The position numbers and the translations under genes are program-made. Under the pieces are notes generated by a model. That model did no database searches, was not told the origin of the DNA, and saw nothing but the letters and a program-made list of their open reading frames with translations. This document shows positions 2,298-7,333 of a stretch of 29,797 bases of DNA, piece by piece (within the stretch, counting starts at the first letter, position 1; every line of letters starts with the position of its first letter). Source of the DNA: a virus; IMG/VR virus record IMGVR_UViG_3300020159_001056, positions 1 to 29,797 of that record; one strand, written 5' to 3'.

Positions 2298-2549
2298 ATG
2301 ACAAACGAAGAATTAAAAACAATAGAATTTGAGGCAAAGGATGGCGTGTACTGCATCGAGGATGATCGTGTGCAGGCTTTAATTGAGGGATACTCAAACA
2401 AGCTGGATCTGAAATATGAACTTCTTAAGGCATCGGTTTGGTTGCGTAAGAATCGCAGCAGACAACGGGAGAAGAAATTAGTGTTTCGTTTTCTAGTGTG
2501 CTGGTTGATGAGATCATTGAAATATCAAAAACATGAACATAAGCATTAA
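2298..2549 (+). CDS. small protein sharing a C-terminal replication-type motif with its neighbour
   Basis: I place the start at ATG 2298, after TTTACCAA, giving 83 residues; upstream in-frame starts would run into the previous gene. The C-terminal half, K-Y-E-L-L-K-A-S-V-W-L followed by R-x-x-x-x-x-x-x-F-R-F-L-V-C-W-L-M-R-S, matches position by position the E-L-W-K-A-H-A-W-L...G-R-Y-L-N-G-W-L-S-R-A block of the next gene. In that gene the motif resembles a block common in phage replication accessory proteins. The N-terminus (T-I-E-F-E-A-K-D-G-V-Y) is beta-like. It overlaps the next gene by 17 bases. Function is unassigned. Confidence 0.6.
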   Translation: MTNEELKTIEFEAKDGVYCIEDDRVQALIEGYSNKLDLKYELLKASVWLRKNRSRQREKKLVFRFLVCWLMRSLKYQKHEHKH

Positions 2550-3099
2550 CATCACCTATACATTTGGCACAAAGGTCGAACTGGTTGTCCCTCTTGAGGA
2601 GCCGGCGCAGATCGTCAGCCAGCCAGAGTCACCTGTGACACCCGAGCCAGTGCAGCCCGCGCAGGACTTAGCAGACGCGATGGCGGGCATCCCTGTGCTT
2701 ACCGACGAAGAGCGTGAATTGCTCAAGCCGTCCGGCAGGCGATACACGTGCGTGCAAGACATGGTCGATGAGCTTAAGCAAGATCCCGAGTCAGGCAAGA
2801 CGATGAGCCTGTACGACATCGCCTACGTCACCCAAGACGGCAAGGAATGGAAGGTGCCGCCGGGACTAATGAAGGACTTGATCATTATCTATGGCGAGAA
2901 GACCGTCGAGCAGGAGTTGTGGAAGGCCCACGCCTGGCTCGAAGCTGACCCTGCGCGGCGCAAGACCCAGCGAGGCATGGGGCGCTACCTGAATGGGTGG
3001 CTATCTCGTGCATCGTCAATGGTGCGGACACCGATCAAGACTCTACTTAAGCGCGAAAGCTTACTGACCACAAATGGAAACACCCAAGAAAGCTGGTAG
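2533..3099 (+). CDS. putative replication accessory / helicase-loader-like protein
   Basis: The 188-residue protein has a low-complexity P/E/Q-rich linker (about residues 22-45) after a beta-like N-terminus. A middle domain with Y-T-C-V-Q-D-M-V-D-E-L-K is followed by a C-terminal block E-L-W-K-A-H-A-W-L-E-A-D-P-A-R-R-K-T-Q-R with G-M-G-R-Y-L-N-G-W-L-S-R-A. I know this last block from many phage proteins encoded next to replicative helicases, where it is annotated as replication or DNA-binding without firm biochemistry. It sits directly before the DnaB N-terminal half and overlaps it by 26 bases, which fits a loader or primosome role. That role is inferred. Confidence 0.55.
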   Translation: MNISINITYTFGTKVELVVPLEEPAQIVSQPESPVTPEPVQPAQDLADAMAGIPVLTDEERELLKPSGRRYTCVQDMVDELKQDPESGKTMSLYDIAYVTQDGKEWKVPPGLMKDLIIIYGEKTVEQELWKAHAWLEADPARRKTQRGMGRYLNGWLSRASSMVRTPIKTLLKRESLLTTNGNTQESW

Positions 3100-3790
3100 G
3101 CGCAGGCCGGTGGAGCTGCCACCTGACACGGTGGTGCCGACTGCCACCGAGGCTGAACGTGGGATAGCGTCGATTGCGCTGAACCACCCCGAGGTGTTCT
3201 TGCACCACATTAGCGAGAAGAGCTTCAAAGTCAGTGACATCTTTGAGCCGCTCAGTCACCGGGTGTGCGAGATTATCTTGCAGCAACAGAGCCGCAACGC
3301 TTCGTCAGAAATTCGTGTAGTTTTTGAGAAGGTGCGCGAGACGCTACCGACAACCCAGTTCCACGAACTTAGCGAACTCTACACGCTTATGCCCATTGCC
3401 GGCGCGATAGGTGAACTTATCGAGATCGTCAAGTCCACCGCCAAGCGGCGCACCTTGCAGCATGTGGCGCATGAGGTTCTCATGGCGATTGGCGACTCGA
3501 CTGTGCAGACGCCCGAGCTACTGAGCGACGTTGTTATGAAGGTGGAAGGTTTGAGCCGTGAGCTTGCGCCGCCAAAGGTGATGGACACGAAGGCGCTGCT
3601 CATCAATGCGCTCAACCGCTACGAAACGGGGGATGACGAGTCGATGCGGATTAAAACTGGCTACTCTGCTATCGACAACATCTGCCCGATCAGATACGGA
3701 GACTTCGTCGTCATCGGCGGCGAAACAAAGAGCGGCAAGACGATGCTCGCACTCAACATAATTGCAAACTTAATAAATGAAACTAATTAA
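3074..3790 (+). CDS. split DnaB replicative helicase, N-terminal half with Walker A
   Basis: The 238-residue protein is the front half of a DnaB-family helicase, which unwinds DNA ahead of the replication fork as a hexamer. Residues about 25-160 are a DnaB N-terminal domain and linker helices (E-A-E-R-G-I-A-S-I-A-L starts it). The RecA-like domain then begins with I-K-T-G-Y-S-A-I-D and reaches Walker A, G-G-E-T-K-S-G-K-T at 215-223. It stops 15 residues later, after A-L-N-I-I-A-N-L-I-N-E-T-N. The missing remainder is encoded 2.96 kb downstream at 6749-7333. Alone it cannot hydrolyse ATP in the usual way. Its end overlaps the start of the next gene (ATG at 3777), so the truncation is built into the operon. 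Confidence 0.85.
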   Translation: METPKKAGRRRPVELPPDTVVPTATEAERGIASIALNHPEVFLHHISEKSFKVSDIFEPLSHRVCEIILQQQSRNASSEIRVVFEKVRETLPTTQFHELSELYTLMPIAGAIGELIEIVKSTAKRRTLQHVAHEVLMAIGDSTVQTPELLSDVVMKVEGLSRELAPPKVMDTKALLINALNRYETGDDESMRIKTGYSAIDNICPIRYGDFVVIGGETKSGKTMLALNIIANLINETN

Positions 3791-4088
3791 CCTTACTCCT
3801 CACGACATAGCCATCACTGGCTACGGGATCGTGGAACCCAGTGGACAGTCCGTCAAAGTGCATAGTCACCTGTCCAAAGTGGCAGACGCTGACGGTGTGC
3901 CCATCATGTGCTGCAAAGAGAGCAAAGTCTCCAACCTGCCTGACCCTATGGACGGTATCCTGTACATCGTCCCGGCTTACGTCAGAACGGCATTGCCAGA
4001 CAGAACAGATTTGGCGAGTCCAACAAAACTCATCCGCGACGGAGCCGGCAGAATCGTTGGCTGCGGTGCGCTTGAAATCAACCCATAA
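3777..4088 (+). CDS. conserved hypothetical phage protein
   Basis: The 103-residue protein begins I-N-L-T-P-H-D-I-A-I-T and contains I-V-E-P-S-G-Q-S, D-G-I-L-Y-I-V-P-A-Y-V and R-D-G-A-G-R-I-V-G-C-G-A-L. I recall this pattern (N-L-T-P-H-D near the start, P-S-G, a Y-I-V strand, and R-D-x-x-G-R-I-x-G at the end) from small proteins of phages and actinobacteria with no assigned function. It is predicted to be all-beta. The ATG lies inside the last codons of the helicase N-half, so this is the first gene of the block that separates the two helicase halves. Confidence 0.65.
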   Translation: MKLINLTPHDIAITGYGIVEPSGQSVKVHSHLSKVADADGVPIMCCKESKVSNLPDPMDGILYIVPAYVRTALPDRTDLASPTKLIRDGAGRIVGCGALEINP

Positions 4089-4093
4089 CAAAC

Positions 4094-4873
4094 ATGAAAA
4101 CAGAACTATTACAAAACCTAGAGATGACAAAGTACCGTGCCATGCACGGCCTAAGCAAACACAGCCTCGACGCATTCGCCGTGTGTCCCTCGTACTACAA
4201 GTGGAAGGAGTCGCAGGAGTGGAAGCCTAGCCGCGAGATGGAACTTGGCACGCTCGTCCACAGCCTCGCACTTGAGGGGCGCTGCGACTACGCAATTGCT
4301 CCAGCGTGTGATCGACGCACAAAGGAAGGCAAGCTCATCTGGGAGAACTTCTGCCAGGCTAACATCGGCAAGGTCATCCTCAACGAGGACGAAGGGGCGC
4401 GTGTAGAAGGTGCCTGCGCTGCCGTGGAGCCATTGCTTGAGATGGTGACAGCAGCCAAGATTATCGAGGCGTCGATGTTCTGGGAACGTGATGGTGTGCA
4501 GTGCAAGGGGCGCCCCGACATGATAACGGAGATCAAGGGTCGTCCAGCGATTGTGGACCTCAAGACGACCAGCGACTGGTCTAAGTTCGACCACAAGTTC
4601 TTTGGCTTTGGCTACGATCGCCAAGCCGCTTGGTACACCTACGGTTTAGAGCAGATCACTGGCCAAGAGGACATCGACTTCTATTTCCTTGTCGTGGACA
4701 TGCAGGCACCTCACTTGAGTCAGTGGGTGAAGGCATCCACGGAACTTATCAACATCGCCAACGATCAACTCGATGTGACCCTAGCGCAATACAAACTGTG
4801 CTTAGATCAGGACGTGTGGCCCGGTCCACCCACGATGCGCGTGATGTTGCCACGTAGATGGGAGGAAGCATGA
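4094..4873 (+). CDS. RecE-like exodeoxyribonuclease (PD-(D/E)XK family)
   Basis: The 259-residue protein matches the phage exonuclease VIII/RecE-type nuclease fold. The entry motif S-K-H-S-L-D-A-F-A-V-C-P-S-Y-Y-K-W is followed by E-L-G-T-L-V-H-S-L-A-L-E with the conserved His and Glu. The metal site is Asp142 in K-G-R-P-D-M and Asp155-Leu-Lys157 in I-V-D-L-K-T-T. The helix Y-D-R-Q-A-A-W-Y-T-Y-G-L follows, the usual Q-x-x-x-Y motif. Such enzymes resect double-stranded ends for single-strand annealing. A partner annealase is not obvious nearby, unless the SSB-like protein does this job. It lies between the two helicase halves. Confidence 0.8.
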   Translation: MKTELLQNLEMTKYRAMHGLSKHSLDAFAVCPSYYKWKESQEWKPSREMELGTLVHSLALEGRCDYAIAPACDRRTKEGKLIWENFCQANIGKVILNEDEGARVEGACAAVEPLLEMVTAAKIIEASMFWERDGVQCKGRPDMITEIKGRPAIVDLKTTSDWSKFDHKFFGFGYDRQAAWYTYGLEQITGQEDIDFYFLVVDMQAPHLSQWVKASTELINIANDQLDVTLAQYKLCLDQDVWPGPPTMRVMLPRRWEEA

Positions 4874-5205
4874 TCGTTCGACCTAAAGATTTTCTGTATG
4901 ACTTTGATGATCAGCAAAAAACTCACAAAGAGCTTATAGAGTGGGGATGGACTGAAGAGCAAGTTAACGACTATCTGTCGGAACGCTCATTCATTAAAGT
5001 CAGGGGGTTTTTCAATGACATACATTCACTGTGCTTTTGTTGCGGTGAAAGCTTAAAGGCTCCGCTGGTGATGTGGAACGGCACTCACGAACATCTTGTA
5101 GAGAAAGAAAAGCAAATCTGGATGCATCGTAAGTGTTGTGAAAACATGATCGCAGGATTAACCAGAGATGTTGAGCAGTTGAAGCAAGAGGAGGCGCAAC
5201 CATGA
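4870..5205 (+). CDS. small putative zinc-binding protein
   Basis: I choose ATG 4870 (111 residues) rather than 4858 because it overlaps the exonuclease stop as ATGA and has GGGAGGA at optimal spacing. The N-terminus is helical and acidic. The middle has C-F-C-C-G and, about 40 residues on, H-R-K-C-C-E-N, a plausible C-x-x-C/H-x-x-C zinc site. A polar helix (T-R-D-V-E-Q-L-K-Q-E-E) ends it. I recognise no named family. It is translationally coupled on both sides, so it is likely made in step with the exonuclease. Confidence 0.6.
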   Translation: MIVRPKDFLYDFDDQQKTHKELIEWGWTEEQVNDYLSERSFIKVRGFFNDIHSLCFCCGESLKAPLVMWNGTHEHLVEKEKQIWMHRKCCENMIAGLTRDVEQLKQEEAQP

Positions 5206-5444
5206 GCGACTGGGTACTCATCCGCCGCACTAACGTGCTGCAAGACGTGGAGTTGCCGCGCCCTAAGAAGACGCAGGACGTCATCTGTGTTGGCCCGAAA
5301 GACGCGCTTGGCTCGAAGATGGAGGCGCTCATGCTGCTGCCGGAGAATCAATCGACGGACTTGATTGGTGTCGAGTATGTGTTGCAGGAGTACACCGGCC
5401 AACACTCGCACACTTCAGCAAGGCCTGGAAATGGAACACGATAA
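5202..5444 (+). CDS. hypothetical protein upstream of the methyltransferase
   Basis: The 80-residue protein has a clear GGAGG 8 bases before its ATG and overlaps the preceding stop by four bases. It opens S-D-W-V-L-I-R-R-T-N-V-L and looks like a small alpha/beta protein. No motif identifies it. Its stop codon TAA at 5442-5444 shares a base with the ATG at 5444 that opens the +1 overprinted frame. The methyltransferase ATG (5431) lies 14 bases inside its end, so both downstream frames could be coupled to it. Confidence 0.55.
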   Translation: MSDWVLIRRTNVLQDVELPRPKKTQDVICVGPKDALGSKMEALMLLPENQSTDLIGVEYVLQEYTGQHSHTSARPGNGTR

Positions 5445-6780
5445 TGTGGATACTACCAAAACAATTACACACGTTGGCCTCTGTGCAGGATACGGAGGCA
5501 TTGAGCTTGGACTTAAACGAGTCCTCCCAACTTTGCGCTCAGTCGCTCTTTGTGAGATCGAAGCCTTCGCCATTGCGAACTTGGTTGCAAAAATGGAAGC
5601 GGGACTCATGGACGCAGCACCTGTTTGGACGGATCTTAAGACCTTCCCTTGGGAAAGCTTTCGAGATCGAGTGGACATCCTCACTGGCGGCTACCCCTGC
5701 CAGCCATTCAGTGCAGCAGGCAAGCGAGCCGGTAAGGACGACCCACGACACCTGTGGCCTTGGATCGCAGATGGAATTAGGCTTATGCGACCCAGAGTCT
5801 GCTTCTTCGAGAACGTTGAAGGACACATCTCGTTGGGACTCTCCAGCGTCATCAGTGATCTGGAAGAGTTGGGTTACACGGTGTCGTGGAACATATTCAG
5901 CGCGTCGGTCGATGCGGGAGCGCCTCACCAGCGCAAAAGAGTGTTCATCATGGCCCACCGTGAGGACAAACGATTCAGCGGCCGGCAGGCCAAACAATGG
6001 AAGGGACAGAATTGGGAAAAACGGACAGAGGTTTGGAATCAATTTGGCCGACAAAGTCATTGCAATACAGAATTGGCCAAGCCCAGTGGCATCGGAAGCA
6101 AGACAGGGGGTTCAGGATCGATCACGCGGCATGAAGGGGAGCCAGGAGTCGTTGACTACTGTGGTGATCAAGCATGGCCAAGCCGCCCCGGCCAGCCCCA
6201 ACACGCATGGGAGCCGCCTAGAGTTGTGGGCAACTCCGAGTGCATTCGACGGGCAGCGACCAACGGAAACAATGGAGGAGTGGAAGATCAGAAATGCCAA
6301 GAAGAAGGAGCAGAATCCAAATCTTGGGACACTGCACAAGCCGTTGACAGTGCAGGTTACAGAGCAGAAGAACCGTTCAGAGTCGTGGGCAACCCCAACA
6401 GTGACAGACGCGAGTGCGATGTCCCCAGAGATGCGTCCCAGCAGGATAGCCACGGGCAGGACAACGGAGTATCTGGCAAGGCAGATACAATGGGCAACGC
6501 CGACGGCGCGGGATCACAAGAGTGGTCGCGGGAACGAGGAGCGGGAGTACAGCGAGCTGACGCCGATGGTCGAACGGACGCAAAGCGGCAAGCTGAACCC
6601 ACGCTGGGTGGAGACGCTGATGGGGTTGCCAGTGGGTTGGACTATGCCCAGTTGTGCGTCACCTGTGACAATCGAACTGACGAGTTGCGCCTCCTTGGCA
6701 ACGGAGTCGTCCCAGCTACAGCAGCATTAGCGTTTATTACACTACTAAATGAACAAAGGAATACTCGTCATCTCGCTTGA
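5431..6780 (+). CDS. C5-cytosine-specific DNA methyltransferase
   Basis: The enzyme transfers a methyl group from S-adenosylmethionine to cytosine C5, probably to mask phage DNA from host restriction. I choose ATG 5431 (449 residues) because AAGG precedes it and motif I follows soon after. Visible motifs: SAM loop G-L-C-A-G-Y-G-G-I-E-L-G-L from residue 16; catalytic P-C-Q-P-F-S with Cys90; E-N-V at 127-129; Q-R-K-R-V-F-I from 167; and L-G-N-G-V-V-P around 422-427 near the end. The long stretch between (about 180-415) is a G/D/R-rich variable region where the target-recognition domain should be, with repeated V-V-G-N. It overlaps a 428-residue frame almost completely and the helicase C-half by 32 bases. 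Confidence 0.85.
   Translation: MEHDNVDTTKTITHVGLCAGYGGIELGLKRVLPTLRSVALCEIEAFAIANLVAKMEAGLMDAAPVWTDLKTFPWESFRDRVDILTGGYPCQPFSAAGKRAGKDDPRHLWPWIADGIRLMRPRVCFFENVEGHISLGLSSVISDLEELGYTVSWNIFSASVDAGAPHQRKRVFIMAHREDKRFSGRQAKQWKGQNWEKRTEVWNQFGRQSHCNTELAKPSGIGSKTGGSGSITRHEGEPGVVDYCGDQAWPSRPGQPQHAWEPPRVVGNSECIRRAATNGNNGGVEDQKCQEEGAESKSWDTAQAVDSAGYRAEEPFRVVGNPNSDRRECDVPRDASQQDSHGQDNGVSGKADTMGNADGAGSQEWSRERGAGVQRADADGRTDAKRQAEPTLGGDADGVASGLDYAQLCVTCDNRTDELRLLGNGVVPATAALAFITLLNEQRNTRHLA
5444..6730 (+). CDS. overprinted +1 frame inside the methyltransferase gene: W-A/P-T-P repeat protein
   Basis: A 428-residue frame runs uninterrupted inside the methyltransferase gene. Its ATG overlaps the stop of the previous gene as TAATG, a typical coupled start. 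From about residue 155 it looks more protein-like than the host frame: G-R-D-R-I-G-K-N-G-Q-R-F-G-I-N-L-A-D-K-V, several W-(A/P)-(T/S)-P motifs, and L-N-P-R-W-V-E-T-L-M-G-L-P-V-G-W from residue 384. I recall W-P-T-P...L-N-P-x-W-V-E-x-L-M-G proteins from many phages, without a known function. The first 150 residues may simply mirror conserved methyltransferase motifs read one base off. Either a genuine overprinted gene or a long shadow frame. Confidence 0.45.
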   Translation: MWILPKQLHTLASVQDTEALSLDLNESSQLCAQSLFVRSKPSPLRTWLQKWKRDSWTQHLFGRILRPSLGKAFEIEWTSSLAATPASHSVQQASEPVRTTHDTCGLGSQMELGLCDPESASSRTLKDTSRWDSPASSVIWKSWVTRCRGTYSARRSMRERLTSAKECSSWPTVRTNDSAAGRPNNGRDRIGKNGQRFGINLADKVIAIQNWPSPVASEARQGVQDRSRGMKGSQESLTTVVIKHGQAAPASPNTHGSRLELWATPSAFDGQRPTETMEEWKIRNAKKKEQNPNLGTLHKPLTVQVTEQKNRSESWATPTVTDASAMSPEMRPSRIATGRTTEYLARQIQWATPTARDHKSGRGNEEREYSELTPMVERTQSGKLNPRWVETLMGLPVGWTMPSCASPVTIELTSCASLATESSQLQQH

Positions 6781-7333
6781 GATGCCAGCTAACCAAATCA
6801 TCGACCGGCTCGTCGCCCGGCTTGGCAGCGTTAGCCTGCGTACCCTCGCTGAAGGAGCCAAGCTTGAGCGTGACATCCGGGGCGTCCACAGTGCCATCCA
6901 GAAGCTCAATAGCAGCCGTCTGGTAGTGCGCGACGACCTGTACGACATCGCCAACATATGCGCCACGGCACGAGCAATGGCGAAGTCGCCGGATGGTCTC
7001 GGTGTACTGTTCGTGGACTACATCCAGCTAGTGCGTTGCGACCTGGGCAAGGATAGCAGCCGCGAGCGTGAGGTGGCTGAGGTCAGCCGTAGTTTGCGAC
7101 TGCTCGGCATCGAATTAGGTTGCTTAGTCATCTCGATTACGCAACTAAATGAACAGGGCAAAGCTCGCGAAAGCCGCGCAATCGGGCAAGATGCTACAGC
7201 CGTGATGGTTGTAAAGCTGTCTGATGACCCGGAGTTCCGCGAGATTGGCATACCCATCCAACGAAATGGTCCGTGTGGCGTGAGCACAAACTTGCGTTTC
7301 CACGGGAAAACCGCGACATTCCACAATGAATAA
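6749..7333 (+). CDS. split DnaB replicative helicase, C-terminal half with Walker B
   Basis: The 194-residue protein starts exactly where the N-half at 3074-3790 ends in the DnaB fold. N-K-G-I-L-V-I-S-L-E-M-P is the strand and S-L-E-M-P motif that normally follows Walker A and its helix. Then come V-L-F-V-D-Y-I-Q-L with Walker B Asp90, the I-T-Q-L-N-E motif, and the S-R-A-I-G-Q-D-A-T-A-V arginine-finger/loop region. It ends with the usual final beta strands. Together the halves make 432 residues, normal for DnaB. The ATG lies 32 bases inside the methyltransferase end, with no Shine-Dalgarno. It presumably assembles with the N-half in trans. Confidence 0.85.
   Translation: MNKGILVISLEMPANQIIDRLVARLGSVSLRTLAEGAKLERDIRGVHSAIQKLNSSRLVVRDDLYDIANICATARAMAKSPDGLGVLFVDYIQLVRCDLGKDSSREREVAEVSRSLRLLGIELGCLVISITQLNEQGKARESRAIGQDATAVMVVKLSDDPEFREIGIPIQRNGPCGVSTNLRFHGKTATFHNE

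Follow-up and report, generated by a model that had tools for sequence, protein, structure and literature searches.

The virus record IMGVR_UViG_3300020159_001056 of IMG/VR was analysed over its entire 29,797 bases, hereafter the window, and we found that its DnaB-like helicase is encoded by two separate open reading frames (ORFs), which lie on the plus strand like all window features described below. The first ORF, the dnaB N-half (3074-3790, 238 residues), carries the N-terminal domain, the linker, the first strand of the motor, Walker A and helix alpha-1, and the second, the C-half (6749-7333, 194 residues), carries the remainder of the RecA-type motor. The first-pass annotation of this DNA had described the two ORFs as parts of one DnaB of 432 residues, cut 15 residues after Walker A. 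Both statements hold, since 238 and 194 residues add up to 432 and the Walker A sequence GGETKSGKT (3716-3742) closes at T223 of 238.

In profile searches the N-half matches positions 155-377 of phrog_19, a DnaB-like helicase family (E value 2e-16), and positions 2-45 of the 255 in the Pfam domain DnaB_C, with a weak further match to the DnaB N-terminal domain; the C-half matches positions 381-580 of phrog_19 (E value 2e-34) and 49-255 of DnaB_C (E value 1.6e-30). On both profiles the halves thus abut, with about three profile positions lost and none duplicated. When mapped by profile onto the solved DnaB structure PDB 2R6A, the N-half covers residues 11-227 and the C-half residues 233-432, and the residues that have no counterpart between them, about five, are all loop, in agreement with the earlier claim that no DnaB element is duplicated or missing. 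The cut falls in a loop; on its N-terminal side is helix alpha-1, the helix that follows Walker A, and on its C-terminal side strand beta-2, from which the chain continues to the SLEM motif. No third DnaB_C match was found by profile search in the record.

Across both halves taken together, the domain order of DnaB (N-terminal domain, linker, RecA-type motor) is present, as are Walker A, the SLEM glutamate, Walker B, the ITQ motif and the arginine finger. Residue conservation was assessed in 19 diverse relatives, in all of which G215, G216, K219, S220, G221, K222 and T223 of Walker A are invariant on the N-half. Equally invariant on the C-half are E11 of SLEM (6773-6784), which we take from DnaB to be the catalytic glutamate, D90 of Walker B (VLFVDYIQL, 6992-7030), Q132 of the ITQLNEQ motif (7136-7156), and the residues QRNGP of the arginine-finger region IQRNGP (7256-7273), which contains R172.

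Recurrence of the split and its intact sister clade

Scanning IMG/VR with each half returned 80 loci per half from more than 40 metagenomes. At all loci that hold both halves, these lie on one strand in a constant order and are never joined, and the identical cut is shared by 77 regions that differ in sequence, none of which is intact. The arrangement that the first-pass annotation had proposed looking for in relatives is therefore found repeatedly. The gap between the halves ranges from 1,323 to 3,785 bases (median 2,076; 77 regions), and identity to the window drops to 49% for the N-half and 67% for the C-half while the position of the cut stays constant. Most N-halves terminate no more than a few residues from ...GGETKSGKTMLALNIIANLI, and an invariant methionine opens the C-half, 2-3 residues ahead of G(I/V)L..SLEMPA. 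In a subgroup of four loci (L144, L145, L146 and L149) the N-half runs on for about 26 additional residues past helix alpha-1, a feature absent from all the others.

Misjoins are possible in metagenomic contigs, and a divided gene may also be a decaying one. Recurrence in 77 distinct regions rules out chance and assembly error, with independent assemblies showing the identical split, among them the separately assembled contig L237 of a metagenome-assembled genome (MAG). Furthermore, purifying selection acts strongly on both halves, with a ratio of nonsynonymous to synonymous substitution (dN/dS) of about 0.05 and far below 1 throughout. In the close group its median is 0.050 and its maximum 0.098 for the N-half (1,034 pairs), and 0.040 and 0.126 for the C-half (778 pairs), the pairs being non-independent in both cases. 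Recurrence and selection refute an assembly artefact or gene decay.

A second, intact DnaB elsewhere in the genome, with the halves as remnants, was another candidate raised at the outset. Each of the 25 contigs of 37-44 kb carries one N-half and one C-half and no other DnaB_C match, at a length near that of the longest relatives, with completeness unproven.

Two profile scans for intact relatives returned split loci alone, and a genome scan gave one phage contig plus far more distant, mostly bacterial DnaBs. Intact relatives were found through a DNA pattern encoding GKTM and SLEMP 48-78 bases apart, and a follow-up scan added more. In L327 and L328 (436 residues) and in L330 and L332 (452 residues), a single ORF runs across the loop, as in GSGKTMLALNIVANILREGAPGACVICSLEMP. 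These sister helicases are up to 44% identical to the C-half and up to 33% to the N-half; they belong to the same family, bear the GKTM...SLEMP signature round the loop and have a similar initiator-like gene immediately upstream of dnaB. They differ from the split clade in that dnaB is one uninterrupted gene of 436-452 codons and in that a deoxynucleoside monophosphate kinase (phrog_139) lies upstream of dnaB and not inside it; in divergent split phages this kinase is found between the halves.

Phylogenetic analysis that included bacterial and other phage DnaBs placed the split clade in one group (support 99/96) beside the intact group (joint support 100/100); because of long branches, the placement of the two together among the other DnaBs is unsure. 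A single split group beside an intact one fits one old splitting event. The simplest history, we infer, is one recombination event, which would have inserted several early genes as a block within the loop in an ancestral phage, the block changing further thereafter.

Genes between and around the halves

The first-pass annotation had counted six frames between the halves, in tight overlap with them and including an exonuclease and a methyltransferase. Five of the six are tandem plus-strand ORFs, while the sixth is an ORF in the +1 frame that overlaps one of the five. The overlaps with the halves measure 14 nucleotides (3777-3790) and 32 nucleotides (6749-6780), and the two enzymes are borne out by family matches. 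The first gene, which we call the 'LTPHDI' ORF (3777-4088, 103 residues), overlaps the stop of the N-half and matches phrog_30542, a family of unknown function. It is followed by a RecE/exonuclease VIII-like PDDEXK nuclease (4094-4873; phrog_412, E value 1e-55, and PF12684), a 115-residue ORF with no family match (4858-5205), an 80-residue ORF of gene cluster 4 (5202-5444) and a C5 cytosine methyltransferase (5431-6780, first ATG at 5431; PF00145 and phrog_363), which overlaps the start of the C-half.

The gene content of the gap was clustered over 72 loci. The 'LTPHDI' ORF (about 104 residues) is the first gap gene in all 72, the nuclease lies inside the gap in all 72, and cluster 4 occurs in 69. 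Just ahead of the C-half, 19 of the 72 loci have the C5 methyltransferase, an optional gene, six have a Mom-like DNA modification protein (phrog_1384), and the rest have neither. This slot (5431-6748 in the window, likewise in L045, L026, L019 and L054) has the look of an exchange site for DNA-modification genes. HNH or GIY-YIG families gave no match among the gap ORFs of the window; the gap genes of relatives were clustered and not all scanned.

The +1-frame ORF (5444-6730) covers nearly all of the methyltransferase, carries the motif LNPRWVETLMGLPVGWT and itself matches phrog_1008, annotated 'DNA methyltransferase' (E value 2.5e-22). The overlapping pair recurs in 19 loci, and the ORF may represent either a further gene or a part of the methyltransferase displaced by a frameshift.

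Directly upstream of the N-half lies an initiator-like gene without a family match (2533-3099), a homologue of which sits directly upstream of the intact dnaB in L321, L327 and L328. The phage L321, which has an intact helicase, also contains head-to-tail repeats (3811-4229 of L321) that can be read as repeated ANTLFTLRSGQQF units.

The C-half begins at an ATGA start in 63 of the 77 regions. Given this start and the overlapping genes at both junctions, a single transcript with coupled translation is likely. A scan for promoters and terminators gave nothing above chance.

The contig L237 (JAFMIZ010000069.1) is a split-DnaB phage contig binned in a MAG of Pedosphaera (Verrucomicrobiota), and it has a ThyX-type thymidylate synthase in the gap. 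That MAG is the one genome among 388 of Verrucomicrobiota with a split-type DnaB, and its binning is a weak hint at the host.

Probable assembly of one motor from two chains

On the evidence of the genomes, the locus very probably encodes the phage's own DnaB helicase, which was cut once in an ancestor and whose two chains would fold together non-covalently into a DnaB-type ring. The starting point would have been a single gene of about 440 codons, cut in a surface loop; a block of ordinary phage genes now occupies the cut, and the halves are separate genes in one tightly packed run. The N-half would contribute the collar domain, the linker, the first strand, the P-loop with Walker A and helix alpha-1, and the C-half the remaining strands of the sheet together with the catalytic glutamate, Walker B, the ITQ motif and the arginine finger, so that the two may complete one RecA-type fold without covalent joining. 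Six such heterodimers would form an active helicase ring of twelve chains, in which each site for adenosine triphosphate (ATP) would combine a P-loop chain, a Walker-B chain and the arginine finger of a neighbour. The invariance of the active-site residues, despite their positions on different chains, argues for such a composite enzyme, as do the constant cut in 77 regions, the single copy of each half beside no other DnaB_C match in the 25 long contigs, the low dN/dS of both, their joint coverage of DnaB, the intact sister clade, which reveals the object and the place of the split, and the precedent of phage enzymes that work as two chains. Of the observations that would have spoken against the trans-assembly favoured in the first-pass annotation, none that is visible in sequence turned up, and that reading is supported.

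Alternatively, the halves might rebuild no helicase at all and have separate roles, with the N-half, for example, binding the host helicase or primase and the phage using the host DnaB. The N-terminal domain of DnaB is known as an interaction domain in its own right, and it is the part of the N-half that is modelled with confidence. However, each chain keeps motifs whose counterparts are on the other: the N-half has Walker A and no Walker B, the C-half has Walker B, SLEM and the arginine finger and no Walker A. Both halves co-occur in all 25 long contigs. The motor part is moreover the best-preserved stretch of the N-half, with 51% of positions invariant (residues 192-234) as against 16% in the N-terminal domain, which is contrary to a pure binding role, where the P-loop would decay first. 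We regard separate roles as improbable.

The halves could also be rejoined before translation, through RNA splicing by a cis or trans intron or through a programmed DNA excision that takes out the block. Some phage genes do contain introns, and removal of the block would in principle restore the reading frame. No intron of a type described in Rfam was found at an E value of 1 or below between positions 2500 and 8000 of the window, however, nor at 0.1 or below in six relatives. The block varies among loci, both in length (1.3 to 3.8 kb) and in the genes it holds, and a stop and a start codon are retained at the break in every region. DNA excision as such was rejected, as no direct repeat was detected: words shared by the two junctions are no longer than in shuffled sequences (mean 6.9 versus 6.4), and the 8-base word shared in the window, TAAATGAA, would fuse the frames wrongly. 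Rejoining at the level of RNA or DNA is accordingly very unlikely.

Joining of the proteins by a split intein has precedents, as phage genes fractured with split inteins exist; a 2009 study by Dassa is said to have described such genes and to be the source of the gp41 helicase inteins. DnaB is itself a known intein host, but its known inteins are located in the P-loop and in motif H4, not in this loop (PMC6195587). There is also no room for an intein at the break. The N-half ends a few residues past helix alpha-1, one subgroup alone being longer by about 26 residues, and the C-half opens with M-x-x-G-I-L, 2-3 residues before strand beta-2. Neither a catalytic Cys or Ser at the start of the tail, nor HN before the break, nor Cys, Ser or Thr after it is conserved. 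The absence of a visible intein motif, pointed out in the first-pass annotation, is thus confirmed, and we consider protein splicing an extremely improbable route.

For the two-chain helicase, AlphaFold2 models of the single chains give DnaB chains as the best structural matches of both halves. The N-terminal domain of the N-half is modelled confidently and its residues 186-228 fall below a predicted local distance difference test (pLDDT) score of 50; the C-half has a mean pLDDT of 65.5. The low confidence of the N-half motor part weakly supports a part that needs its partner chain, the support being weak because the alignments are shallow and each chain was modelled without its partner. In a comparison of evolutionary distances, correlation with the C-half is highest for the N-half motor part, at 0.96 versus 0.92 and 0.89.

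Several points speak against a two-chain DnaB ring. The evidence consists of genomic sequence and single-chain models, and the models, built on shallow alignments, are of modest confidence. The distance correlation is a weak test because all genes of the block co-vary, also highly. Furthermore, bacterial DnaB and the intact sister clade have a lysine at the second position ahead of the arginine finger (within 7256-7273), where every split relative examined has I, Y or F, so that details of the motor may be different.

The split may also have been put to use. The ring could be built round single-stranded DNA by docking of Walker-B chains on a collar formed by N-halves, or the start of replication could be gated by the proportion of the two chains, with the ring-opening loader replaced or simplified; we put forward this idea tentatively, as a rather unlikely extension of the two-chain helicase.

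Comparison with known systems

The ring of a replicative helicase is commonly regarded as a motor that cannot be divided. The present phages, a stable lineage, have Walker A and Walker B on separate chains and would provide a natural two-chain RecA-type motor and, if the proposed assembly is true, a replicative hexamer whose every ATP site is assembled from three chains. The trans assembly of a RecA-type fold, the loading of a ring by docking of its parts and the survival of an essential gene after cutting would thereby become testable, with the intact sister clade as a control, and the cut site may offer a natural split point for switchable helicases.

The combined halves resemble the DnaB family, including bacterial DnaB, Ban of P1 and P7 and the helicase of Pseudomonas phage HU1, in domain order, motifs and fold. 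Members of that family, however, are one polypeptide, are about 27-37% identical to the split pair and typically keep the lysine before the arginine finger. A DnaB replicative helicase is a single polypeptide, whereas the protein is split in all 77 distinct regions; the pair probably derives from DnaB and works like it, yet is no standard DnaB protein.

The split-intein fractured genes (gp41-1 and relatives) and the DnaB inteins are likewise cases of interrupted genes, in environmental phages or in helicases of the DnaB family. They differ from the present case in that no intein sequence lies at this break and in that the position in the protein is another (PMC6195587).

Closer are the enzymes that phages encode in two genes, such as the ribonucleotide reductase NrdA of Aeh1, the T4 topoisomerase gp39/gp60 and the polymerase of genes 43A and 43B (PMC2988022), and the divided DNA polymerase III alpha of jumbo phages (PMC7824862). 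There, too, an essential enzyme is carried by two genes, and where tested the two chains work without splicing. As with Aeh1 NrdA, the two ORFs described here jointly match intact relatives (L327, L328, L330 and L332) and have no intein. The enzymes are others, however, and in T4-type cases the split goes with homing endonucleases or with a spacer that is not translated. Here the gap is filled by ordinary phage genes that can be exchanged, and Walker A and Walker B end up on either side of the cut. In the open-access literature we came across no DnaB encoded by two genes without an intein, and none cut inside its motor, in line with the earlier remark that no DnaB with a cut in the ATPase core was known. 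Split phage enzymes as such are already known; new, as far as that literature shows, are DnaB as a split enzyme and a cut site within the motor.

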